Under the pieces are notes generated by a model. That model saw nothing but the letters and a program-made list of their open reading frames with translations, did not search any database and had not been told where the DNA came from. 64,000 nt of DNA, from positions 186,001 to 250,000 of the forward strand of contig JALIZF010001448.1 in NCBI GenBank assembly GCA_029948255.1, in the 5' to 3' direction. Each line of letters opens with the position of its first letter. The first letter of the stretch is position 1. The stretch is from Telmatactis stephensoni (taxonomy: Eukaryota; Cnidaria; Anthozoa; Actiniaria; Isophelliidae). Shown one piece after another: positions 6,340 through 64,000 of this stretch. The position numbers and the translations under genes were made by a program.

Positions 6340-7711
6340 CTAACAGTGTAAAATAGCACAGAAATGCACGAAAAAGTTGGCGAAAGAAAACCATAACAGT
6401 AGAAGCAGTTGTTGACACTGTAAACGAGAGTCACTGATCCGAAAACCTGTCAGTCATCGAATTACCACTCCTACTACCGCTCTCTGCAGTGAGAGCAGAA
6501 TTAACAAATAAATTATCTTGCTGGTCTTTTTTTAGCTTTGACTACAGGAAGATCGAATATTCACTATCGATAGTAACTCTATTTAGCTTAATTAAACCTG
6601 GGATGCCTGTGGTTCACCTTCCCGGAAACAGCATGTGTACTGATTGTGGCCGATGTGAATTAATACTCATTTAGGGTACTTTCCATTTAGTGAAACCATT
6701 CCAGCAAATGCTAGGAACTGACATAGCCGTTCTGGCCAGCTGGTTCCACCAAATGGAAAACATGCTAAGATTCAAAAACTATGTACGTGACAAGTATTTT
6801 TGTGTGACTGAGGTTTAAAAACGCAAACTATTTTATTAGAGTGGTTTTCGTATGAGTGAAAACACTGTATGGTTGCGATACGATACCGCGGTTACAGCAG
6901 GAATTTCAAATGTTTTTATACCGAGGAACTATGATACTGGTACAGTTACGAAACGGTACGGTAAGTTTCCCACTCATACGAAAAAGACTCTAACGTCTCG
7001 CTCGCACTAGTTGTGTTTTGATCGCCTTTATAACAAAGCTTCGAGATGACAAACAGAAGGAACTTGAAGAAACCTCTTCGCGATTTGAAAAATACTCTAG
7101 GCCCTAATATTTTTAACATAATCATTATATTTTGTCACGATGAATTTCCAAACATTGATACAAGCACGATCCCTTAGGCGCTGACGTACTTCCAACAAAT
7201 GAGAATTTCAATCTTATCTTCATAAAATGGTTAAATGATCGTCATGATCAGGATCTCAGCTAATACTTAATCTTGATACCTATCATCATCTATTGACTTT
7301 TCACTTCAATTCTGAAAATGTCGAAAACATTGTCGGTAATATAAGTTGAGATGACGTAAAAATACATGTCGTCTGAAAATAGAGGTTTTTAATTAAAAAA
7401 AAAAACCGCTAAATCACTAAATTGTAATTAATGACGTTAGGTTTTATCAAAATATTGGATTTTGAGTTCAACAGTAGATACAGATATTTCAGTTCGTTGC
7501 GTTTGTTAATATACGATATATAATATACCTTTGTACGTAACTGTGATATAATTCAGAAAATTTTGTGAAAAAGCAAACAAAACCCATATATATTGCCAAG
7601 TGGACAAAAGCTAAGGTCGGGAATATATTTCCTGTTTAACAAAAAATGAGCTTTGCCACCTGCTGCTTGAATAGAATTAAAAAGACAGCATACTGCAGTT
7701 TGATGAAGCAC
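6340..7711. other. Non-coding stretch
   Basis: No gene recognised. AT-rich, with no clear tandem or inverted repeat. Confidence 0.4.
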
Positions 7712-8152
7712 CAAAACAAAACAAAACAAAACAAAACAAAACAAAACAAAACAAACAAAACAAAACAAAACAAACAAAACAAAACAAAACAAAACAAAAC
7801 AAAACAAAACAAAACAAACAAAACAAAACAAAACAAAACAAAACAAAACAAAACAAAACAAACAAAACAAAACAAAACAAAACAAAACAAAACAAAACAA
7901 AACAAAACAAAACAAAACAAAACAAAACAAAACAAAACAAAACAAAACAAAACAAAACAAAACAAAACAAAACAAAACAAAACAAAACAAAACAAAACAA
8001 AACAAAACAAAACAAAACAAAACAAAACAAAACAAAACAAAACAAAACAAAACAAAACAAAACAAAACAAAACAAAACAAAACAAAACAAAACAAAACAA
8101 AACAAAACAAAACAAAACAAAACAAAACAAAACAAAACAAAACAAAACAAAA
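7712..8152. repeat. (AAAAC)n microsatellite of about 440 bp
   Basis: Almost pure AAAAC pentanucleotide with a few AAAC interruptions, all in the first third (about 7750-7865). The remaining 290 bases look uninterrupted. Open frames on both strands (NKTKQ or FVLFC repeats) are artefacts. Confidence 0.98.
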
Positions 8153-9764
8153 GTAAGTAATTTTTTTTCCACTGGAAAAACATAATCTAAGCTGTTTAGT
8201 ATTCCTTGTTAAGATTGTGGCACCAATTTTAACTGTATTGTTTATTTTTCTTGTAGTAAAACACGGCCGGAAGACGTAATTTATTACTGACTCCATAAAT
8301 AACCTTGCTTTTCTTCTTTGATGAATTGCGCCACCCTTTGTCATCAATTTGGCTAAGAGGACCCGATATATAGAACATAAAAAAGTCATTATATATAAAG
8401 TTAGGTGCCCCAAGGCAAGTGCTTAATACAGTGGTTGGGTTATCAAAGAAAAAGTCATTCATGAAATACATACACATTAACAGATTAACATGAGATAACA
8501 GTAAAGTACTTCATTCTTGCGTGCAATGCTCTCAACCTATATATTTAGAAAAAATAAAGTAGATCATTGATTTTGTAACTAAAGATAACTCCGAAGGTCA
8601 ATGGCAAATTTAAAAGTGGAGACGAGTCGCCTCTAGCCGTAACTAAGAGGGTTGGGAATCCTGTTTCGTTAGATTGAAATGAGATTGGAATCGAATACGA
8701 GAAATTGTTGTGAATGTTTTTAATTTGTTTGATTTCCCTTTGAATTTTGGTCCTTGTTTCGTTGGCAGATTGATCCTGTTTCAGAATAAGAATACATAGA
8801 ATGATTCGAACAACCGCCCGGGGTTATAGTTCTCAAGGGAAGAGAGAGAGAGCACTTGTTTTGTTTGTTTGTTTGGCTTGTTTTTTAAGTACCGAAGTTC
8901 CTTTGATTTTGCAGCAATACACATTTAGTTAACTTTTATTGTTGGAGAGTCACTTACTCTACACATACTGAAGCACCATCAGCCTACCAAGACAGAGAGA
9001 ATGGGGGAAGGGAGTTTTAGAAGATGAGAAGATACTTTATTAACAAATACTTTGCAACCATAAGCTGAGTTGCGTATTTAATAGACTAATAATAATTAAA
9101 TGTTATTGTATTATATACAATAATTTCTATAAAGATTTCAAGACTAATGGTCGTGCGTCGTGTGTCGTGGGTAAGGTCGTGGGTACCAAAACTGTTCCAA
9201 AAATGATATAGAATGATCGAATTTGAGCGAACAGTGAATTATAGTAATGGATTTCGGCCTAAAGCCCCGTATTTATTCTTAGTATTTGGACCGAAACACT
9301 CGCACTCGTTATTGAACTATAGCTTAATATAGGAGAATAGACAGACAATACTTTTTATATTCGTGTAAATCAGAAATTAACACTGAAGGTTTGCTTGACG
9401 CAACAAGGGTAAATTTACCAACAGTCAATCACTGAACGCGGTGACGAGATATTGTTTCTGAACTTGAATGAGTGTCTACTAGTAGTTACTCACAAGAACT
9501 ACCGAAAGGGCGGTGTGCAGAAAAGGGAAGCATGATGTCATTTCATTTGAGATGACAGTTGAGTGTACAGTTTCATCACTGTTGAAAAAGAACAGATACC
9601 AACGGTGGGTTCTTTCTCGATGTGACAGACCTGGTATTAGGTCTGTTAACGGAATCTGGTCTACGCGTCTCCGTTTCGTATTTCTATAAAAAGCACGGAT
9701 CGGTTATGATCACTGTTTGACTTTAATTACTAAACATATTGGGTTTGTTGGATGTATTGCTCTC
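8153..9764. other. Non-coding stretch
   Basis: No gene recognised; a short GA run lies at about 8840-8850. Confidence 0.4.
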
Positions 9765-16725: not shown

Positions 16726-17375
16726 CGCTTCAAGACTCCCTACACTAACTGATAGTTCTTATTTTTGTTTATTTTTATAGGATGTCTTGCAAGACAAGCA
16801 AATGGATGTATCTTTTGACATTTTATTGTTATTTGCTTTTCCTAATAATCATATAACTGTTTTCAATATATTACAGTGTTATTCTAAATATTATACAGCA
16901 AAATTTTAAAAATCCAGATTATATATATACTCATGTATCATTTCCCAGATTGTTTTCAGTTAATGAAAAAGTTAATAAAATCAATTATAAATTTATTGTG
17001 AACTAATCAATTGTTTCACGGGTTTTTGAACATCACTATTACCAGCTAATTAACTTTTGTTTCACGGGTCTAGCAGGGTTTTCAGAAACTCGTAAAAAAG
17101 TTACTTATCAATTAGAAATAACCAGATTGGAACAATAGAAAACAAAGGAATAACAGTGTAATGTTATTTATTACGCTATAATGTCTTTCACGGGTTTATG
17201 AAAATCACTCTATCAAAACCACTCCAGCTAAATTCATTTAACAATAAAAAAAACATCCAAGTACACAACCCATACAATACGTATGCCCTCATTCCACAGA
17301 TATTTAAACATTAAGCAGGCACATGCGCTTATAAAGCGCCTTTAATTCTCTTTGCATTCGCTGGTATAATGCAGA
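16726..17375. other. Non-coding with three TTTCACGGG motifs
   Basis: GTTTCACGGGT-type motifs occur at about 17013, 17050 and 17188. The same word is found in the ends of the 36-40 kb element. No gene. Confidence 0.4.
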
Positions 17376-17894
17376 GTGAAAACAATGAGTTTTGGTAAGA
17401 ACAGTAATTATGTATCACTTGATATCCTAAAGCTGATATATAATGCGCTTATTCAGCCAGTTTTCGACTATTGTGATGTAGTATGGGGCAACCTTAATAA
17501 AGGGCTGGCAACCAGAGTTCAAAAGCTACAAAATTGTGCAGCCTGTATTATTACTTTTCAAGGTTATGATGTTCTATCAAAAGATATATTAAAATCATTG
17601 AATTGGGATAACTTGGAATCAAGAAGAGAAAAACATCTAAGCTTAATAATGTATGATACAATTAATCATAAGACGCCAAAATATTTAAGAGACCTTTTCC
17701 CAAAATGTTCAGAAATCAACGCATTCAAATCTCGGTTACGAGGAAATGAATATAATGTAATAGTTGATTTTAATCCCAAAACAGAATATGGAAAAGCGTC
17801 TTTTTCATATAGAGGTGCAAAATTATGGAATTCCCTTCCCAATGACGTAAAGTCATCTAAATCAAAAACAAATTTGAAAAAGAAACTGACTTAG
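17376..17894 (+). pseudogene. CR1/L2-like LINE, C-terminal domain of the pol protein
   Basis: The frame encodes the post-RT region of CR1/L2-type LINEs: IYNALIQPVFDYCDVVWG, RVQKLQNCAACIIT, LNWDNLESRREKHLSLIMYD, and a terminal SYRGAKLWNSLPNDVK before a natural stop. An untranslated tail follows and ends in ATTC repeats (about 18181-18206), as expected of a CR1/L2 3' end. It is probably the 3' part of the LINE whose middle lies at 11347-11735. Confidence 0.85.
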
Positions 17895-35729: not shown

Positions 35730-36318
35730 ACAACTTATGATTTCTTTTCAAAATTTTGTAATCACAAAGATCCTATGAGAAAGGCGGCAAGAGACGCATT
35801 CAAGAAGATAAAATACTGTGCAAAGCAAGTTAGCTTGGAGCACTTTAGCACTCGAAGATACACAGCTTTACAGTTCCAATTGTGTGAGATTCACAAGTCT
35901 GCTGAAGCTGAGATTCGCCTTTGGCACAAAATGATTTTGCGTAGGATGCACAAAACACCCTCTCACTCAAGTCCATGGATCTGCAAGTTCAACAGGGATC
36001 TTCCTGAAGTAATATTTGAGCATATTTGCGAAATGTTTACTACAAATAACTATGGCATTAGTGTGTCAAGAAAAGGAACTAGCGTACACCTTGCTATCAC
36101 TGAGATTAAAAAAGCACAATGTGTGTTCAAGAGTTTTTGAAGATGACAATTGTGAGATTTTGAAGAGGCCATATCAAGAATACGGTTTTGCCAAAGTAAT
36201 AGTAACCAGTGAATTTCCGATGGAAATTAAATATTTCAGTAGTCCCAACAGACTTGCTGTTACCTTACACTGCAAGTATGGTATGTGGAATGAAAATGGT
36301 GTACAGCAGCATTGGTGA
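35730..36318 (+). pseudogene. Unrecognised ORF family, plus-strand copy
   Basis: The frame reads KAARDAFKKIKYCAKQVSLE, SAEAEIRLWHKMILRRMHK, then PWICKFNRDLPEVIFEHICE and SVHLAITEIKK before a stop at 36138-36140. A neighbouring frame continues FEDDNCEILKRPYQEYGFAK up to a GTGAGT donor near 36315, suggesting a frameshift. The block from THSSPWICKFN to ITEIKK recurs inverted at 44735-44960, where it is fused to a coiled-coil gene. Function unknown. Confidence 0.55.
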
Positions 36319-36878
36319 GTGTCAAAACAATTTATTTTATACAATTTGGTGCTATTTTGTACTATTTTTTCACTAAAGTGCAAACACTAAATCTGTGAAA
36401 GACTAATTACTACATAGTACTACATAGTGCTATTTAAACAATAGAGTCGTTTCATTTAACCCGTGAAATAGTTAGTGACTTATTACGTAGAACCACTGAG
36501 TAACAGATAGTAGTATTTTTTGTATTATTTGCACTCAAGTAGACTAAGTCAAAAACACCATTTTATTTCATGAATTAAATACTAATTACATTAGTTTTGA
36601 CCTTTGCAAACAATGTTCAATGAAAAAAATACATAGCTCATATGTTAGCTTCGTCACTGACGGCTTTTTAAGCCTTACTCGAAACTTTAAATTGACTTAG
36701 CCAAGAACTCATTTTTTTTATCTCATGAAATTTCTAATAAATTGCATCAGTTTTTTTTCTATTGCATGAATAATTACTTGGTATATCTTAGCTCACTACA
36801 TCACTGACGGCTTTCTTCAGACTTACAAAAAATTAATAAACAAAGTGAAACAATAAGAAAGTGAAACAATTGAATAAA

Positions 36879-38493
36879 TTACCAACGATGAAATGTTGGG
36901 TCAAAAACTCCTCCACAACAACTGCAAAAATTTCCTTGTTGGTTTTCCTGAAAACAGTAAGGACAATCACTGTGGCGGTTCGATGATGTCCTTTCAGCTA
37001 ACTGTTGTGAAGTCTGGTCAGCTTCTCCTACAAGGCTGCTTGTTGTGGCAACTCTGTTGTTGTGTGGTTTATGAAAGGACAACAGATTACTACACCCTGA
37101 AGACGAGTTTTCGGATTGAAGTGACTCGTTCCTCTTTACTGTATCCAAGATATCTTTCAAAATGGAAGTGTCAACGTTGACATCTGTCAAAGATGGTGTT
37201 TTGTTTTCATCAGTCAGATCAATCACCTTGGTATCTACACAGCTTTCGTCATCCCCGGCTCTACCATCAGACTCCAAAATTTTGTGAACTACCGCATTCA
37301 TATCTCCCTGTTCTGTGGCAAGAAGGGAGGCCAGCTTTACTTCAGAAGCAAAAGGTAGCACCTGTTTTAGATTGTCAAGCTGGTCATGGAACTTGAAATG
37401 CAGGGCAGTTGATGATTCTAGACTCGCTTGAACGGCTGGTGCACTTGTTGCAGCACTGGACAAGTCGGTTTCTTTCCCAGCATCACTTGATTGGCGTGGT
37501 TGCCGCTGATGCAATAGAATTGCGGTTTTAAGAACTGCCAGGGGGCTTAACTCTTTAGCAGTTTCTGCGATTTCATGTGAATAGGAATTGATACTTTTGT
37601 AGATGCTTCTGTGTTCCTGCAGCTGCTTCTTTTGCTTATCTGAAAATTTAACAATAAAATCTTCATTAATATTTTAATGTATATAATTTATTGGCATTAA
37701 TATTTTTGTATAATCTACTGAACACTGGAAATTGAAGTCACAAAAACTAGACCAGATAACAATTAAAATATTCATTGTTTCTATGTTTGTGTCTGTTAGA
37801 ACTCAATTTTCCCCTTTGCTGCATATTTAACAATTTTGCAAAGCCCATTGAAAGGCAATGATATCAGTTTTTCAAAACAAAGAATCCAATCAATATTCGA
37901 ACAGAAAATTCATTAATGAGCTCAACGTGTTCATGCTTTTGCTAGTTTGACCATAGGTTTGACTGTAAACAGGTAAAGATGTTCTAGATTCTCAATTCTT
38001 TCATAAAAAAATTGGGACGAATAATGTTTTGGATGAATGGAACACATTGATAATGCACTTGTTTGATTAAGCATAAAATTCAGAAAACTTGGAATTATAC
38101 AGTTATGTGTTGCATACCTCTTTTTTGATCAGCTTTTGGCATTTTCTTAAGTACCATTGCTTTTGATGACTCAAAGTTTGCCACTTGCAGTGCACTCATA
38201 CACTCTTCGACATTTGGTGCATAGAGTGTTGGTTTCATATCTGGGAAAGGCACATCTGTGGAAGACGGCGTTACAGGTGTTTCTGTCCTCAGACTCGAGT
38301 TCAAGCTTGCCCTCCACTGCTTTCCCTTGTCTGACTTATCTTGGCGTTCTTGATAACGCATTGCCAGAACTTGGTCGTGTGTGGAGCATCTCGAACACGA
38401 ACAATTTGAGAAAGGACAGGCCCGTCTATGACCTTTTAAAGGGACAATTTTACCGTGTAGACGGCACTTTCCGCAATTTCTTCCTGCCATCAC
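36879..38493 (-). CDS. DM-domain (doublesex/mab-3-type) DNA-binding protein, two exons
   Basis: Exon 1 (38118-38493) and exon 2 (36879-37639) join in phase (AGAG|GTATGC ... TTTTCAG|AT) to encode 378 residues. Residues 7-36 hold the DM zinc module with the spacing C-x2-C-x2-H-x8-H-x3-C-x4-C-x-C-x2-C, identical to the doublesex family (CGKCRLHG, LKGHRRACPF, CSCSRC). A basic, helical recognition tail follows. Residues about 210-251 (LKQVLPFASEVKLASLLATE, GDMNAVVHKIL) resemble the CUE/UBA-like DMA domain of DMRT proteins. The C-terminus has a Cys cluster (C351, C354, C364, C366, C367). DM proteins bind DNA in the minor groove as sex- and development-related regulators. This copy has no stop or frameshift and lies inside the TA-flanked transposon. 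Its role there is unknown: captured host gene or element-encoded DNA-binding factor. Confidence 0.82.
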
Positions 38494-39084
38494 AGGTTTT
38501 CAGCTGATGTGAAGGAGTGTCCCATGTGCAAAACTTGGATTTTATATTTTTTTATTTAAACAATGTAATTGTCACCGTTTTCTTGTTTACGAAGAATTTG
38601 TATCCCAAGGGAGGATATTATATAAGAGTTTATTCTCTTGTGTTATCAGGGAAAGCCCTTATGGATATATTTCGACGTGCCACCCCTCCTCTTCCCACCT
38701 CTATGGAAACATATTATCCTACAAAAACGTTTATATAATTTACATTGCATTGGTATCGGCATTTTCTCATGCATGTCATCACTAAAATCAAATGTTCTTA
38801 AAAAATAGACAATGGCCAGAAATGAAGCATATTTTATTTTGTATAGAACGTTATATAATCATGAACATTCAATATTTTAGCCATAGAAATTTCATTATTA
38901 CAACTACACAAAGAGCATCGCAGAATGGCTGGTCTGGTCATTTAATGAAATGCCCTGGTACAATGTAGATGAAATAACGTTTTCTCAGGAAGTGGATTTG
39001 ATTTTTCTGCCTTTCTAAATGCCTTGGTATCTAAATGATCATGGAGGGTGTTATCGTTATGGTGTTTCTTACCCTACGCAATAA
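38494..39084. promoter_or_regulatory. Shared intergenic region between divergent DM-domain and transposase genes
   Basis: About 600 bases separate the two start regions. No clear TATA box pair was identified. The arrangement makes this the likely bidirectional promoter of the element. A 73-codon plus frame at 38517 has no family signature. Confidence 0.35.
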
Positions 39085-40032
39085 CGACTTCAAGTAATTG
39101 TAACGTATTTAGCTACGTTATCTACCCCACGCACTGCTGAAATCTGCCAAGTATCGTACAACTGCGTCGACAAATATATGAAACTTTTTCAAGAAAGAGC
39201 GACGATTTCACCATTGGTAAACAGAAATATGCGTCCAAAAAAAATCGCTTGGTGGATGGAAGCGTATATGGAGGCAATTGTAAGAATATATCCTAATGTT
39301 TACCTTCGCGAGATTCAAATGCTACTCAGAGACGACTTCCAACTAGCACCAAATGATGTTCCATCTATTGGGGAAATTGCAAAATTATTCAAACAGCTTG
39401 AAATTACTCGAAAGAAATGTATACATGTAGCAGTTGAGCGACTGTCGCCACGTAATCGTTTATGCAGACAGATGTACATTCAATGGAGAAGAACAATTAA
39501 CCCAGGCATTATATATTTTTTTGACAAAACTCACTTCAACGTTGAAACAGATGAGAGAGAATATGGGAGAATTGATTCAGGATTTGCATGCCCTTCATTC
39601 CGCTCAAAGGGCAAGGCAAAGGACGGAAAATATTCTACGCTGGCTATTTGTGGCTTCAGAGAGGGAGTAATTCAAGCTATACCTGTGGCTGGATCATTCA
39701 CAGCTGATCTAATTAACGAAGTTATGGAGAATCAAGTCCTTCCTCTTCTTCCAAACAATTGTTTTATTGTTGCAGATAACGCCAGTGTGCACAATGATGT
39801 CGCACTATGCCGAATATTAGCTGCAAAGAATATAACTTTGGTCAAGCTTCCAGCGTATGCCTATGATTTAAACCTGATAGAAATGGTGTTTGGGCATGCA
39901 AAAGCCATTGCCCGGTTTACTCCAGGTTTTTTGAGAGCAAATTCCATGTTAGCTATTGTTAGTGCGTTCCAACAAGTCTCCGCATTAAAAGTGCGAAAAT
40001 TCTATAAGCGTTCATGGAACATTTTTGAATAA
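39085..40032 (+). CDS. DD34E transposase, IS630/Tc1-mariner superfamily
   Basis: From the ATG at 39178 the frame gives 284 residues. The catalytic triad is visible: D116 (YFFDKTHFNV), D200 (IVADNASVHND) and E235 (YDLNLIEMVFG), with exactly 34 residues between the second D and the E. The frame is open upstream to 39085 and encodes RTAEICQVSYNCVDKYMK, a helix-turn-helix typical of the N-terminus of these enzymes. The true start is therefore upstream, perhaps in an unseen exon, or the N-terminus has decayed. No internal stop. It would cut and rejoin the element at TA sites. The gene ends about 370 bases before the right terminus. Confidence 0.88.
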   Translation, partial: RLQVIVTYLATLSTPRTAEICQVSYNCVDKYMKLFQERATISPLVNRNMRPKKIAWWMEAYMEAIVRIYPNVYLREIQMLLRDDFQLAPNDVPSIGEIAKLFKQLEITRKKCIHVAVERLSPRNRLCRQMYIQWRRTINPGIIYFFDKTHFNVETDEREYGRIDSGFACPSFRSKGKAKDGKYSTLAICGFREGVIQAIPVAGSFTADLINEVMENQVLPLLPNNCFIVADNASVHNDVALCRILAAKNITLVKLPAYAYDLNLIEMVFGHAKAIARFTPGFLRANSMLAIVSAFQQVSALKVRKFYKRSWNIFE

Positions 40033-40350
40033 GACAACTAACTTGCAGACTGTACTTAATCTTTCGATGCACGTATTACAATACATTTTACTGCTCGGAA
40101 TTCCTTTTGTTTTTGTTCACAGCATTGTGTGATCGCACTTAAGGTCCTTAAGCTATTCTACACATTGTTTCAACTCATAATGGTAAATGTACTGAAATGT
40201 ATTAAATTACAAAATATGGAAATAATCTAAATAAAAGCTTTTTGTATCACATAATATTACATAGTACGGCTTGGTATTACATAGTGAGTAATTGCTAGTG
40301 TTTCACGGGTTAAATGAAACCACTCAAGAAGAAAATAGAATTTGCATAAA

Positions 40351-40793
40351 ATTGCTCTATTTAGTATTACTAAAATTTCACAGATTTATTGTTTGCACTC
40401 TATTCTTGGTTTTCATGTGACGTCATTGAAAATATTGGTTCATGCTCCATATTGATCACAAAAAATTTAGTCTGAAGTATGTTGCTTATATACCTAACAG
40501 AAGATTTTCCTGAATATTTGAGAAGCTTTCCTTGTTTGGTTTTTGGAAAAAAAATCAAATCTTTTTTAGTTGTTTAAGCAGGTTGGATTTCTGGCAACCA
40601 TTGCTCTATTTAGTATTACTAAAATTTCACAGATTTATTGTTTGCACTCTATTCTTGGTTTTCATGTGATGTCATTGAAAATATTGGTTCATGCTCCATA
40701 TTGATCACAAAAAATTTAGTCTGAAGTATGTTGCTTATATACCTAACAGAAGATTTTCCTGAATATTTGAGAAGCTTTCCTTGTTTGGTTTTG
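40351..40793. repeat. Tandem duplication of the transposon right end and flank
   Basis: About 194 bases from 40351 (ATTGCTCTATTTAGTATTAC...) recur from 40600, offset 249, with very few differences. The unit contains the last 50 bases of the transposon and about 145 bases of flank, so the terminal sequence GTTTGCACTC exists twice. Confidence 0.93.
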
Positions 40794-41723
40794 GAGTTAT
40801 CAAATGCTAAAAACTATGTCACGGAACACTGTCATGCATTTTCCTCGGGACATAAAACAATGAATTTGTTAGAAGTAAACACACATTTGGCTTATTCTAT
40901 GAATAAAGCCATTGTTTATTTGGTATCAGTATCAAAATATATGATTAAGTTGCTATTTTTAAATGATTTTGCCAATCATATTTATTGTCCACCATGTACT
41001 AAAGTGGTACACCAATATGGCAGCCCCATACATTTCTTTGTAATGACTGAGTTTGTGAAACTGTTGATATCTTTGCATCACAACCTCTTTTGGACTTAAA
41101 ATTCCCTGGAGTTATAAAGTTTTTCCTCCTCTTTAAGAGAATGTGCTCTGATTTTACTCAGGGACGTGAGTTATTTTGATGACCTGAACCTGGGGAGTGA
41201 CACCAACTGCGAAGTGTCATACATTTCTTACTAAAGATTGAGAACTTCAAAGGTTAATATCTTTGCAACAAAAGCTCAATTTAATTTGAAAATTAATGTG
41301 AAGTTTAACTTGCTCTTTAGAGTGATATTATTTTCATTTCACTCAGGGCCCTGGAAATTTTTCAAGGACGTTGGTGAAACCAAGAATAATTGCTTTTAGC
41401 TAGGCTAAGTTCAAATGTTGAATCTCACATTTGCCAAATTTAACTACATCAAGGAAGACCACCTCATTATCTATTGTTTAAATTGCATTTGGCACATGTG
41501 AAATTTGATGTATGAACTTAACCGTAGTCTATATTAGTGTATGCTTCAAACTCTTAGAGTGGTTTTCATTAATGAAATACACTTTTGTGCATTTAGTACA
41601 CACTAGTATACTAGTACTAGTATAATAATAATAATACTAATGTACTTAGTGCGCATTTAACATGGCTCAATGCGCTTACATATGTGTATAAATAAAAAAT
41701 AATCTGTAGATAAATAAATTGTG
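40794..41723. other. Non-coding stretch
   Basis: A 123-codon plus frame (40728-41099) begins in the duplicated unit and shows no family signature. A TACTAGTA-rich patch lies at 41600-41640. Nothing else. Confidence 0.35.
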
Positions 41724-42905: not shown

Positions 42906-44186
42906 TTAGAGACTAAGCACACTCTGCAGAATGAGGGTGGTCCCTATGACCGCAGACGTCTGCATACCACCCAGCATGTCTGGAATACCGAGATCTTTCA
43001 GGTACCCCTCAAGATTACTAGACACGACCCCTAGACAGCCAACAACCAATGGAACCACCTTTGTTGACACCCTGTGTAACTTTCGTATCTCCTTTGCAAG
43101 AGGAGAATATTTAGCAATTTTCTCCTCTTCCTTCACCACCACATTACGATTCCAAGGCACCGAGAAATCAACGAAGGTCCACTTACGAGCCGCCCGATTC
43201 AACACAGTAACATCTGGACGATTATGTTCCATCTTCTGTGTTGTCTCGACGCTCCTGTCCCACCAAATCCCTACTTCTCCATCATCCGAAATCCTAACCT
43301 CATCTGGAACCTCCTTATACCAAACATCAGCACATTTCACCCCATACTTCCGACACAGCTACCAATACACCCTCAACTCCATCCGATCATGTCTCTTCTT
43401 ATATTGCTTCTGGGCCAGAACACTACAACCACTCGCCAAATGGCCAACAGACTCCACCTCCTTCCCACAAACCCTACACTTTGGATCCACATTCTCTTTC
43501 TGAATGGTTGCCCGGAAAAACCTTGTCCTCAGAGCTTGCTCCTGTGCTGCAAAAACAAACCCCTCAGTGCCCTTACCCAAATACCCTGCCCTTAACCACT
43601 GCCAAGACCGCTGATCAGCAACCTCGCTCACATCCCTCATGAATTTTCCATGCAACCTCTTCTCTAGGAAATTTTCTTTCCTCTCCTTCTGCACCCTCTT
43701 CTTATACTCCTTCTTTGTCTCACCAACATGCAACGACACACCAACCACCTTTAACATCCACTCGTCACTCCCTTTAACATACCCAAACAAACCCAGCTGT
43801 TCTGCCCTCACACAGTCAACAACACTGATCAGCCCCCTACCACCATGCTTCCTTTTCATGTACAACCTCGGAACACTCCCTTTCTTGTGAAAGACCCCAA
43901 ACATTGTCAACCTCTTTCTCGTTTTTACATCCATCTCCTTCAACTCCCGATCACTCCAGTCCAAAATCCCAGCACTATACCTTACCACACTGACAGCCCA
44001 AGCATTGATTGCCTTGATCAAATTAACACCATACAACTTCGACTTTGCCACAAGCTTCACCCTTCTCAAGTATTCATCTCTTACTTTCTTCTTCATTTCC
44101 TTCTGCATGATATCTGCCCCTTCTAACACACCCAAGTACCTATACCCATTCTTGTCCATCTCACTCATTACCTGACCATCAGGCAA
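42906..44186 (-). pseudogene. LINE with CCHC and restriction-like endonuclease region (R2/NeSL type), 5'-truncated
   Basis: The minus frame starts in the RT thumb (MPDGQVMSEMDKNGYRYLGV) and runs through VVRYSAGILDWSDRELKEMD and GGRGLISVVDCV. It reaches the knuckle C-x2-C-x8-H-x4-C (CRVCGKEVESVGHLASGC). A single in-frame TAG (43359-43361) follows, then the region around RPDVTVLN and WTFVDFSVPWN, which corresponds to the restriction-like endonuclease of early-branching LINEs, and ends ILQSVLSL. The 5' part is missing beyond 44190, where AAT/GAT microsatellite begins. It lies within the intron of the gene above, in the same orientation. Confidence 0.8.
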
Positions 44187-44206
44187 AACAATCCCTTCAC
44201 AACGTT

Positions 44207-44232
44207 CTTTAATAATAATAATAATAATAGTA

Positions 44233-44264
<32 letters not shown>

Positions 44265-44275
44265 AATAATGATAT
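44207..44275. repeat. AAT and GAT trinucleotide microsatellite
   Basis: (AAT)n followed by about nine GAT units at the 5' edge of the truncated LINE. Confidence 0.95.
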
Positions 44276-45273
44276 AACTTTATTTAAAGAAGGTTTAAAA
44301 GTATCGGTACAAAAATACACCAGTTTATCTAAGCTTGTCTTTCACTGGGCCTTAATATAATAATATAATATTTTAATCTATAAAATAATACTTGATGAAG
44401 TATATAGGTCTAGGCTAGCTGTGTAATGTTGGTGAACATTAATACACATACTACAGGCTAGGAGGTCAATTTTCTCATTGTTTAAGATTTTTCAAAACAA
44501 AAGCAATAGTAATACAATAATAACAATAGATTGATGATGATGATGATAACTAACCTTCTCTTTCAGCTTTTCAATAGTGTTTTCAGCTTCTTTTACTTTG
44601 TTGCTTATATCTTGCAGTGCATTGTTCGTTCTCACTAGTTCTTCTCTCTCCAATTTCCTTGCCCTCGACCAAGACCCAATATCAAAACGTCCTTTGCCTT
44701 TTTGCCACATATTGTAAACCTCAGTAGTCAAGTATCACTTCCATAAGGAAGATCTCTTGAAGACAGATAGTCTCTTTTTAATCTCAGTGATAGCAAGATG
44801 TACGCCAGTTCCTCTTCTTGACACACTTATGCCATAGTTATTTGTAGTAAACATTTCGCAAATATGCTCAAATATTACTTCAGGAAGATCCCTGTTGAAC
44901 TTGCAGATCCATGGACTTGAGTGAGAGGGTGGATTAGCTAGGGTTAGCTAGTTTGCACACGGTACTTTATCTTCTTGAATGGGTCTCTTGTCGCCTCTGT
45001 TAAAATCCTCTTGGTAATTTTTTTCTCGAAAAAGGAAAAAATAAGGTCAAATTAGCAAAAACATAAACTAGAGCATATTTATGAAAATTCTATCGTTTCA
45101 TATTTTATCTGTTGGGCCTCACTTTTTTACAATAACTTCGTAAACATGATGCTATCTGAATTAAAAAGGCCTCTCATACATCAAAGGACGAACAATAGCA
45201 AACTTTGCAATTTTTGAAATCTTATTTTATACAATAAAAAGTTGAGTAAAATACATACCTTTGGAAAGGCCAT

Positions 45274-47501
45274 TCAAAGTGGAAAAAACGTGGCGGCTGT
45301 CTTTGTCAGCCTCTCAGCCTCCAGGCTTTGATTCTTGGCACAAAAGTGAGGCAGGACCGAGAAGTGGGCTTCACAGAGATTGGATTGCCTTCTTCCCATC
45401 TCTGGATGTATGACTGAATGTGCATCAGCTGCTCTCAGTTCACATTCAATTTGGTAAGCCATATGGTGGAAGGGACATTTGATGACGTTTGTCGTTGTAT
45501 ATGGCTTTCCTTTACACTGGTGCTTTTCGTCTTTACATTTACCACACGAGCAAACCGTCTAGGGATGAAAGCCACATTCACCTCCTTTCCAACTGTGAAT
45601 GTCTACACAGTGGTATTGTGATAGGGCCCTCATACGCCTTGCATACTCAGCAGGGGTCGAGCATTGCTGAAGGCAGCAGAAATGATTTATTCTAGCATTA
45701 AGGATAAATTGTTCTGACAAACAGTCACATCCTTTACTGTGTCGCTTGCAAATGCAAACCAGAGTTTCCATCTTAGGGAAATGCTGTTTCCATCTCGACA
45801 CTTTTGCAGCAGGAAATCTCTTGAGTTTTGCTGCCTCCTTTAAATTGTTGGCATGTGCTCGACCAACATGGCCACCACATTTAAATACTCTTTGAGGCTC
45901 AACCCCAAATACAGATTCCACAGAGGATTTGCAGCTCGAGTCTGCGTCTTGCCAGACAATAGCAACGTCACATCCCTCTTCCTTACATTGTTGATAACAT
46001 TCTCTGCAAGGACGCCCTCCATCGATTTTGCTGTGCCTTTGAACCGCTGGTCCTCATCTTTGCCCCTAATACATTTGTGGCCAAACCACAGTAAAGCACC
46101 AGTGAGGTAGTTCTTAATAATAAACAAGCCATTCTTACTGAAATGGCCTCTTGTGTGCCAAACGCCATCAGATGTGAGCACAGCCCTCTTCCAGCTGCCC
46201 AGTGTCATGTCATCTTTCTTCTTCGTGTGGGATTTTGCCTCCTCACACATCTCATTTAAAATATCATTTACATGAGGATAAATAAGGCTGATAACTTCAA
46301 AGTACCTGTTCTTTGAAATAGCTGGTATTCCTAAATATTGATTCAGTGTTTTGTTAAACTTAGCAAAGCCATGCCCAGACACAATAAATGCTACAGCAAG
46401 GGATAATCCAACCACCGTCCTTCGAGATCCCTCTATCATTGACGATCCTTGAAATATTATGTTTCGATGGCTGCAACCGTTACACTGAAACATGATGTTT
46501 AAGGTACCTCCAAGGCCAAGAGTTTCAATTTTGGATGGAACAAGGATACCTAAGTATAAAAGAGACAGTATAAAATATAAATCAAAAATCAAAAAATTGT
46601 CTACTGCAGTGCAAACTGACTTTTATTGATTAATAGCACTGCTCCCAGCCATTCAGAATCTATAATTTTTCATGTATATTATACATGTAAAATGATAACG
46701 CTCATTCCAACACTTGCATTTGGATATAAAGTTTGCTAATAATCGCACAAACAAGGATCACAAGGCCAGTCACGCGTTGTGTGTTGATAAATTCACTGTT
46801 TATTTGGATATACATAAGCTTCATTCATGACTCTTACCATTGCAATCATCGGTGGAACATCTGGATGTTTTTAGTATCTGCAAGTCTTCTTTTTACCATC
46901 TTCGAAACATTGCAAAAATAAGGAAATACATCTCTTTGAAAACGACTGAAACTCTTGTCCATGCGTTCATATCCTCCAAACTTGACAATTGTAACTCTCT
47001 ACTCTTTGGATTACCCAACAAACTTCTTGATAAATTACAATCTGTACAGAATGCTGCTGCCAGAATCATCACTCTTTCCAATAAACATGACCACATTACA
47101 CCTATCCTTGTTAATCTGCACTGGCTACCAATCGAATCTAGAATTAAATATAAAATCCTGTTACTTACCTTCAAAGCTCTTCAAGGTCTATCTCCTAATT
47201 ATATCCAAGAACTTATTTCAGTGTATAAACCCAAACGTAATCTTCGTTCTTCATCACAAGTTCTTCTATCAACACAGTCGTACAATCTTAAATCTTATGG
47301 CCATCGCTCCTTCTCTGTACCTGCACCTGAACTCTGGAACTCACTGCCAACATCTCTCCGTAATGTATCAAGTCTGGCCTCTTTTAAAACTGAACTAAAA
47401 ACTTACCTCTTCAAATTTGCTTATTCTTTGTAATTGTCTTTTGTTACCAATATTTATTTAATTAGCACTTAGAACAGATTTGTATTTGCGCTTTATAAAT
47501 A

Positions 47502-61948: not shown

Positions 61949-64000
61949 GCGTTTTCTAGTTGTGGATCTATTAAACCTCCCAGCTCTCGATTATACGTGA
62001 TCGAAGAAGTGTTTTTAAATTGCATTTAAGTGAATTCGGTTTTCGATTTTTTGTGATTGTTTTTGCCTTGAAGAGTATGTCAGCATTATGATATACACAA
62101 ACTTTTGTGATTTTTATTTTCTTGGACAGCATTACAGCAATATTATGTATTACTTTACTATCATAATTTTCTTGGATGTAAGTAACTCTTTTCTCTTAGC
62201 AAGAATCCAGCTTTGATAATCTAAACTCAAACGGAATGCAAGCTTGAGCTCACAGTAGAATAAAGAATTCTACGACCCGAGAAGGAGCTGAGCAATCCTT
62301 ATATTCAAGTGGTAAAGTGACGCAGCTATGTACACAGTTACTACGCTTGCTACAGTTACTATACGCTTGCTACAGTTACTACGCTTGCTACAATTACTCT
62401 ACTTGCTACGTTTACTACAGTTACTACACTTGCTACAGTTACTACACTTGCTACAATTACTACGCTTGCTACAGTTACTACACTTGCTACGGTTACTACG
62501 CTTACTACAGTTACTACGTTTACTACAGTTACTACGCTTACTACAGTTACTACGTTTACTACAGTTACTACGCTTACTACAGTTACTATGTTTACTACAG
62601 TTACTACGCTTACTACAGTTACTACGTTTACTACAGTTACTACGCCTGCTACAGTTACTACGCCTGCTACAGTTACTATGCTTGCTACGTTTACTACAGT
62701 TACTACGCTTGCTACAATTACTACGCTTGCTACAGTTACTACACTTGCTACAGTTACTACACTTGCTACAGTTACTACACTTGCTACAGTTACTACACTT
62801 GCTACAGTTACTAGACTTGCTACAGTTACTAGACTTGCTACAGTTACTACGCCTGCTACAGTTACTACGCCTGCTACAGTTACTATGCCTGCTACAGTTA
62901 CTACGCCTGCTACAGTTACTACGCCTGCTACAGTTACTACGCCTGCTATAGTTACTACGCCTGCTACAGTTACTACGCTTGCTACAGTTACTATACGCTT
63001 GCTACAGTTACTACGCTTGCTACAATTACTACACTTGCTACGTTTACTAGTTACTACGCTTGCTACAGTTACTACACTTGCTACAATTACTACGCTTGCT
63101 ACAGTTACTACACTTGCTACAGTTACTACACTTGCTACAGTTACTACACTTGCTACAGTTACTACACTTGCTACAGTTACTACGCTTACTACAGTTACTA
63201 CGTTTACTACGCCTGCTACAGTTACTACGCTTGCTACGTTTACTACAGTTACTACACTTGCTACAGTTACTACACTTGCTACAGTTACTACACTTGCTAC
63301 AGTTACTACGCTTGCTACAGTTACTACGCCTGCTACAGTTACTACGCCTGCTACAGTTACTACGCCTGCTACAGTTACTACGCCTGCTACAATTACTACG
63401 CCTGCTACAATTACTACGCTTACTACGCGTTTTCTAGTTGTGGACCTATTAAACCTCCCGGCTCTCGATTATACGTGATCGAAGAAGTGTTTTAAAATTG
63501 CATTTAAGTGAATTCGGTTTTCGATTTTTTGTGATTGTTTTTGCCTTGAAGAGTATGTCAGCATTATGATATACACAAACTTTTGTGATTTTTATTTTCT
63601 TGGACAGCATTACAGCAATATTATGTATTACTTTACTATCATAATTTTCTTGGATGTAAGTAACTCTTTTCTCTTAGCAAGAATCCAGCTTTGATAATCT
63701 AAACTCAAACGGAATGCAACCTTGAGCTCACAGTAGAATAAAGAATTCTACGACCCGAGAAGGAGCTGAGCAATCCTTATATTCAAGTGGTAAAGTGACG
63801 CAGCTATGTACACAGTTACTACGCTTGCTACAGTTACTATACGCTTGCTACAGTTACTACGCTTGCTACAATTACTCTACTTGCTACGTTTACTACAGTT
63901 ACTACACTTGCTACAGTTACTACACTTGCTACAATTACTACGCTTGCTACAGTTACTACACTTGCTACGGTTACTACGCTTACTACAGTTACTACGTTTA
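61949..64000 (+). repeat. 1,478-bp higher-order tandem repeat (one full unit plus 574 bases)
   Basis: A unique block of about 380 bases (GCGTTTTCTAGTTGTGGA ... GACGCAGCTATG) is followed by about 1.1 kb of minisatellite (62331-63426). The unique block then recurs at 63427-63808 with only a handful of substitutions, and the minisatellite resumes with the same order of variant units to the window's end. Offset is 1,478 at both ends of the unique block. The array continues beyond 64000. Confidence 0.95.
62331..63426 (+). repeat. 18-bp minisatellite (TTGCTACAGTTACTACRC)
   Basis: About 60 units of GCTACAGTTACTACRCT with 12- and 6-bp variants (GCTACGTTTACTACAG). All three plus frames stay open in places (ATVTT, LLQLL, YYSYY repeats) because units are multiples of three. 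I regard these as non-coding artefacts. Confidence 0.95.

Follow-up and report, generated by a model that had tools for sequence, protein, structure and literature searches.

A 64,000-nucleotide stretch of the cnidarian Telmatactis stephensoni (positions 186,001 to 250,000 of contig JALIZF010001448.1, assembly GCA_029948255.1; the whole stretch is called the window below, and positions are those within it) contains a DNA transposon of 3,882 bp at 36444-40325 with two genes arranged head-to-head: a Tc1/IS630-type transposase on the plus strand (39019..40032) and a two-exon gene for a DM-domain protein on the minus strand. In animals, DM proteins are viewed as transcription factors that underlie sexual development, and Tc1/mariner elements are mostly seen as one-gene transposons. 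Here we show that many families of elements hold both genes within one pair of ends, that the two genes were inserted jointly at TA and diverged in step, and that the frames and domains of the DM protein were kept while silent sites became saturated.

Two nested sets of inverted repeats surround the genes: an outer set of 27 nt with 93% identity (36374-36400/40376-40402) and an inner set of 25 nt with 96% identity (36444-36468/40301-40325), for which the chance expectation per window scan was 0.00 and 0.03 matches, respectively. An earlier, sequence-only reading of this DNA had taken the outer, TA-bordered repeats as the ends of a 4,025-bp element at 36376..40400 and had noted the inner repeats as a second matched block. 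That a DNA transposon bounded by inverted repeats lies here was correct; its limits were not, since all 13 copies of the window's own family (family A, defined by DM exon-2 matches at ≥97% identity, n=13, window included) end in the inner repeat, and the second matched block is in fact the true pair of ends. The transposon proper (unstranded) starts with GAGTCGTTTCATTTAACCCGTGAAA and ends in the inverted copy of this sequence, and GAGT[C/G]GTTTCATTTAACCCGTGAAA was the inner-repeat terminus in 13/13 family-A copies. TA was found outside both ends in 12/13 of them, the window copy having TA on the left (36442-36443) and AA on the right (40326-40327). The left (36444..36468, plus strand) and right (40301..40325, minus strand) terminal inverted repeats carry an exact end that is paired at 14 loci.

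When the window flanks were joined without the inner element, they formed a ~145-bp palindromic repeat, a miniature inverted-repeat transposable element (MITE), whose left part (36374..36443) and right part (40328..40402), both unstranded, hold the outer repeats. Relatives of this MITE without the element, L024:344-488 (77%) and L022:3815-3957 (76%), aligned ungapped across the joint. Thus, the element jumped into a MITE, and the outer repeats were rejected as its ends. At up to 4 substitutions, the outer ends were not present at the other 12 family-A copies, save for C93, where a diverged set lies next to the copy.

A genome scan for the true end, allowing up to 2 mismatches, returned 348 matches compared to 0 for a reversed control pattern. 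About 101 of the 348 were listed, and among the matches listed there were 29 exact ends, which made up 14 pairs and one single end (C28). These 14 pairs correspond to the 13 family-A copies and one 2.1-kb derivative on C428, which retains the end of DM exon 2, and DM-gene sequence was found inside every one of them. The listed matches also included several one-mismatch ends that face each other 141-145 bp apart and represent MITEs with nearly the same ends (for example C73:1032651-1032791, C133:120747-120891 and C212:12228-12372).

The transposase gene starts at 39019; in relatives the protein has a length of about 337 amino acids and begins with M(P/S)W. It combines a paired-box-like DNA-binding region with a DDE_3 domain (PF13358, 54 bits, cut-off 28.6), and D169, D253 and E288 were invariant in the transposase alignment (A1), the last two being separated by 34 residues. 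The rightward-facing DD34E transposase of the sequence-only reading therefore stands, with the addition of an in-frame TAA stop at codon 22 (39082-39084). Furthermore, the DE that follows the initial portion of the catalytic core is changed to DK in the window. Paired box PF00292 scored above cut-off in the relatives P0016 and L039, and below it in L029 and, narrowly, in the window's shortened frame; the PDB matches at E≤0.01 were exclusively Prd, Pax6, Pax5 and Pax8, and covered the whole paired domain. This N-terminal region presumably binds the ends of the element.

The DM gene, in turn, is intact: as described before, it is uninterrupted, faces left and has two exons (38490-38118 and 37639-36879), which encode 377 amino acids, so that in the window copy the transposase frame is broken and the DM frame open. 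Exon 1 (38118..38490, minus strand; 124 codons and one base) encodes the DM domain, and exon 2 (36879..37639, minus strand) encodes a CUE/UBA-like stretch, an LLSFHKP motif and a C-terminal zinc ribbon before the stop. The 478-bp GT-AG intron between them (37640..38117, minus strand) has a matching position in other families. Between the two genes lies an unstranded region of 528 bp (38491..39018), which presumably is a shared divergent promoter. The DM domain scored 45.5 bits in Pfam (cut-off 27) and aligned with the solved DM domains of Doublesex and DMRT1 through the Cys/His pattern; the match covers Pfam positions 4-36 of 47, and the C-terminal part is diverged.

Eleven spliced DM proteins from nine families could be aligned over their full length, with the intron at the matching place. 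They share one order of parts, in which the DM domain is followed by a coiled stretch and an LSPLxVLKTAIxLHQ-like block, then by a CUE/UBA-like domain, an LSF or LAF motif and, last, a Cys4 ribbon that terminates in RW or RL (the ribbon is absent from L026 and shifted in L033). The CUE domain exceeded the Pfam cut-off in four relatives (L032, L033, L039 and P0006). A structure model of exon 2 (mean pLDDT, the predicted local distance difference test, 65.6; pTM, the predicted template modelling score, 0.25) gave 54 Foldseek matches at E≤10, of which none reached E≤0.001; the top-ranked ones were UBA/CUE domains, with a probability of up to 0.99, and this predicted structural likeness is supportive only. 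Pfam labels the element domain CUE, not DMA. When compared to DMA domains from eight host loci, however, the element CUE aligned over 39 gapless columns (hhalign 87%), and 0/200 column-shuffled controls were as good, a match that general CUE likeness could also give. At 11 of the 13 host-type DM loci (defined below) a DMA match lay within ~6 kb on the same strand. Thus, the genes of elements and host appear to have a common domain order.

The 13 family-A copies were 99.2-99.9% identical to each other. Flanks were shared on both sides only by L018 and L019 (99%), other flank matches being two short repeat stretches, and the 13 copies therefore occupy 12 sites. The DM domain was whole in 12/13 copies and truncated in L019, and the spacing between the DM and transposase matches was 541 bp in 10/12 copies and 540 and 554 bp in the other two. 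A full transposase frame was present in 11/13 copies and the full 377-amino-acid DM frame in 5/13, the window among them. In the others, the DM gene had lost its start codon (L013), acquired a stop (L011) or a frameshift in exon 1 (L021), or was broken in exon 2 (L009, L012, L017 and L018); L019 lacks the first 17 codons and has a broken exon 2, and keeps most of the gene. The differing exon-2 breaks of L009, L012, L017, L018 and L019 fall at nearly one spot, codons ~190-210 of the exon near LLSFHKPRNN, and that of L009 is an insert of ~110 bases; the cluster may reflect a hot spot, decay or assembly error. Seven joined flanks were compared to the genome and the best 40 candidates scored; for three of the seven this gave an empty site whose single TA falls precisely at the joint (C35, C343 and C439, the last being the checked example of a repeat with at least 38 sites); with this scoring the other four flanks do not count as negatives. 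The near-identical copies with both frames open suggest that the element was active recently.

Both genes were also found between their own TA-flanked ends in ten further elements from eight diverged lineages, with transposases 42-74% identical to the query: L022 and L023 (B), L025 and L026 (F), L028 (G), L030 (H), L031 (I), L033 (K) and two D elements, C571:245923-254152 (8.2 kb) and C186:357309-364630 (7.3 kb). The matched terminal arms measured 16 to ~270 nt and began with GAGT in nine of the ten and with GAGC in C186; TA, GAG and an inner edge resembling GAAA recurred in end sequences that otherwise varied by family. Seven of the ten had the genes head-to-head, and the G element and both D elements had them tail-to-tail. 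In most of them the partner of the transposase has a DM domain, a CUE-like domain and a zinc ribbon. In C186 (L039/L040) the DM gene contains more introns, and the DM domain, the CUE domain and the Cys-pair C-terminus lie on separate exons; the same ends also occur as a pair inside this element, at a distance of 140 bp. Furthermore, L032 (J) had both genes and arms that do not start with GAG, no terminal repeats were found for L020 (E) and L024, and L027 is a derivative in which the DM gene is broken.

At the level of the genome, the DM-domain search gave at least 87 matches, which we divided by score alone into 13 host-type (≥59.8 bits) and 74 weaker, element-type matches, and the transposase search gave at least 123 matches, or at least 98 loci after merging; both sets of counts are lower bounds. 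Among the 85 transposase loci at least 33% identical to the query, an element-type DM match lay within 3 kb of 50 and within 20 kb of 62. The 13 distant transposase loci (27-30% identity) had no DM match within 20 kb. Seen from the DM side, 50 of the 74 element-type matches had a transposase match within 3 kb, 45 of them head-to-head and 5 convergent, and 46 of the 55 near-complete transposase loci had a DM match within 20 kb. On C1096, C231 and C442, DM and transposase were 13-19 kb apart, with 14-19 kb on the first two.

The sequence-only reading had weighed two possibilities, that a host DMRT gene was captured or that a lineage of transposons employs a DM protein as an accessory factor, and had proposed to look for repeated copies in which the same ends enclose both genes. 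Such copies exist in number (12/13 family-A copies with a whole DM domain and the ten further elements), which supports the transposon lineage; the accessory role of the protein is what we infer. Neither of the two contrary outcomes it had named was encountered: none of the 13 host-type DM matches was on the same contig as a related transposase, and no exact end pair among the matches listed lacked DM sequence.

The two genes have evolved together. The identity matrices of transposase and DM protein from nine families, without the near-duplicates A_window and B_L023, were correlated with a Mantel r of 0.84 (5/20,000 permutations as high). Both trees contained (J,(I,K)) and a group of A, B, E and F; G and H paired in the transposase tree and were unresolved in the DM tree. 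Between families, the proportion of differences was 0.72-0.89 at silent sites (pS, saturated) and was restrained to 0.32-0.51 at replacement sites (pN). We read this pattern as a sign that purifying selection has long acted on the DM protein as part of the element. Thus, the recurrence of two-gene elements, the matched divergence and the selection on the protein together indicate that DM is an integral second gene of these elements and not fresh cargo.

In an unrooted tree of DM domains (46 rows after removal of identical ones, 62 columns), element and host rows were split on one branch with support of 91/84, present in 92% of bootstrap trees. All 34 rows on the element side were typed by score, and include matches without a known transposase, such as C1:3778414. 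Within these few columns, the element DM domains fall outside the host DMRTs sampled. The tree comparison that the sequence-only reading had suggested thus makes recent capture from a sampled host DMRT gene unlikely; ancient capture of a host DM gene, or movement in the opposite direction, would be compatible with it. The host row nearest to the element side, with weak support (78/87), was the host-type match C110:266973-267113 (L043), which has no DMA match on its contig and is a candidate donor or domesticated copy.

We consider it likely, with these data taken together, that the window element belongs to an old and diverse Tc1/IS630-type lineage whose second gene, with its DM, CUE-like and zinc-ribbon parts, encodes an accessory DNA-binding factor. 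The job of the DM protein is probably accessory DNA binding or regulation. In this model the divergent promoter would drive its expression, and it would act as a second, accessory factor that binds element DNA. The CUE domain and ribbon would be used for contacts, and the CUE and coiled parts could serve to tether the transposase, to regulate it or to attract chromatin proteins of the host. The working model, by analogy, is Harbinger, in which a transposase and a Myb-like partner have congruent trees, joint nuclear import and binding of the terminal inverted repeats (PMC9179366). The likeness to PIF/Harbinger lies in the pairing of a transposase with a small DNA-binding partner, in the congruent trees and in a partner that is less conserved than the transposase (PMC9179366); in contrast, the partner there is a Myb/SANT protein beside another transposase, whereas here a DDE_3 transposase accompanies a DM/CUE/zinc-ribbon protein. 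Fungal DNA transposons with a TET/JBP gene offer a precedent for a regulatory accessory gene (PMC12730594), although that accessory is an enzyme in a fungal host and not a DNA-binding factor.

The elements share with Tc1/mariner the TA target, the terminal inverted repeats, the paired-like DNA binding, the DDE_3 DD34E core and the presence of short elements, several of 141-145 bp, whose ends are nearly those of the DM element. They differ in having two genes, the second encoding a DM protein, and a length of 3.1-8.2 kb; a DM gene, whole or damaged, was present in 13/13 family-A copies. A single gene is the usual and not a strict trait of Tc1/mariner, as Tec/TBE have three open reading frames (PMC7325037); HvSm of Hydra/Schmidtea is a named DD34E family (PMC7325037). 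Compared to DMRT factors, the protein has the same Cys/His pattern in its DM domain and a CUE-like domain downstream, where a subset of DMRTs has DMA; it differs in the diverged C-terminal part of the DM domain, the extra zinc ribbon, its residence in a transposon and its position outside the sampled host rows.

Several observations weigh against an accessory DNA-binding gene that is maintained throughout the lineage. Both frames were open in only 4/13 family-A copies (L010, L014, L015 and L016). Among the diverged elements, only the DM exon was identified in C571 (L029/L041/L042), later DM exons not being identified there; L025 and L026 have a stop in DM exon 2, and L026 has also lost a zinc ligand; and the DM gene of L033 has a shifted end and a damaged frame. 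Of the element-type DM matches, 24/74 had no transposase match within 3 kb, and 9/55 near-complete transposase loci had no DM-domain match within 20 kb. Sequences were fetched for two of these nine: L019 holds the truncated DM gene, and L038 (transposase 55% identical, one stop) showed no DM remnant and no ends. The Pfam search of the window DM protein reported no CUE domain. The classical DM binding site is ACAWTGT, and this motif was not enriched over nine elements, with 15 occurrences compared to 11.3 expected (38/200 shuffles as high). This speaks mildly against binding of the plain DMRT kind; with part of its DM domain diverged, the protein may recognise a different site. The family-A copy examined holds four ACAWTGT sites, of which two lie ~160 bp inward of the ends. 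Counted up to 400 bp from the ends, the nine elements had 4 compared to 2.4 expected (41/200 shuffles as high), and sites near the ends were rejected as general evidence.

A reading that we hold to be clearly less probable, and still worth serious thought, is that the protein is an element-borne transcription factor which would drive the element's genes or steer host genes in the germ line, thereby hijacking the role of DMRTs. DM proteins are germ-line and sex-related transcription factors, and the head-to-head layout places a possible shared promoter between the genes. However, the genes of the G and D families are tail-to-tail, and a shared promoter is therefore not what keeps DM in the element. 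By sequence alone, such a regulator is indistinguishable from an accessory DNA-binding factor. Very improbable is a passenger, that is, a host DMRT gene recently taken up by one transposon copy and functionless there. The DM domain shows clear homology with the one in DMRTs, but a passenger is contradicted by DM genes in nine lineages (the window's included), matching divergence, selection on the protein and element DM domains outside the sampled host DMRTs. We give practically no credence to a chance neighbourhood or assembly artefact of two unrelated repeats. Nested repeats do exist here, as the MITE demonstrates; against this stand the near-constant 541-bp spacing, the 14 exact end pairs among the matches listed as opposed to no reversed-control match, and the empty sites.

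The direction of transfer could also have been the reverse, with the DM-CUE protein being older in transposons and animal DMRTs, together with their DMA domain, derived from such an element. The element DM domains form one side of the DM tree, the element CUE aligns with host DMA better than any shuffled control, and the transposase resembles Prd/Pax across the whole paired domain; the PAX paired domain is itself thought to derive from Tc1-like transposases. Nevertheless, we regard this direction as improbable at present: the DM tree is short and unrooted and its branch lengths are silent on direction, the relatives come from one genome, other assemblies and one coral, and general CUE likeness would also yield the DMA match. 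It would likewise be a long shot to see the DMRT sex-determination factors as domesticated transposon accessory proteins, in parallel to the proposed origin of PAX from a transposase. If this were true, the paired box and the DM domain, two hallmark DNA-binding domains of animals, would adjoin in one transposon lineage.

Relatives also occur beyond this genome. A search of a large protein collection gave 14 relatives of the DM protein, matching exon 2, and 39 of the transposase, and one named relative was from the coral Desmophyllum pertusum. P0014 (a DM partner) and P0021 (a transposase) each occur on 3 contigs, the longest of 3,100 bases, which suggests that the two may share one contig. A protein search with DM exon 1 alone gave one candidate and none that was significant. 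In two scans of viral contigs, 47 and 5 stretches matched the pattern, and 18 did so in prokaryote genome contigs, none being confirmed as relatives. Among the papers listed by full-text searches aimed at DM or DMRT genes in transposons, which did not extend to subscription papers and Repbase entries, none reported a DM gene in a transposon; the text of PMC10027918, on transposon-derived animal factors, does not contain 'DM domain', 'DMRT' or 'doublesex', and that of PMC7325037, on Tc1/mariner, does not contain 'DM domain'.

The retention of a DM protein as the second gene of a transposon links DM factors with Tc1/mariner elements, and the near-identical copies with both frames open offer a testable two-protein transposition system. 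Moreover, counts of DM domains in such genomes may include many transposon genes, up to 74/87 here, 50 of which have a transposase at a distance of at most 3 kb. The question of which way genes have passed between DMRT genes and transposons also becomes answerable.

Directly to the right of the element, a 193-bp stretch made up of the MITE right end and host flank is tandemly doubled (40351-40543 and 40600-40792, 99.5% identity); Tandem Repeats Finder reported no tandem array at 36000-41500. Elsewhere in the window, open reading frames at 43359-44279 (minus strand), 17370-17894 (plus strand) and 46831-47433 (plus strand) resemble, as judged by eye, remnants of reverse transcriptases or long interspersed nuclear elements, and 7553-8422 and 62248-63495 are long simple repeats that are open in several frames.

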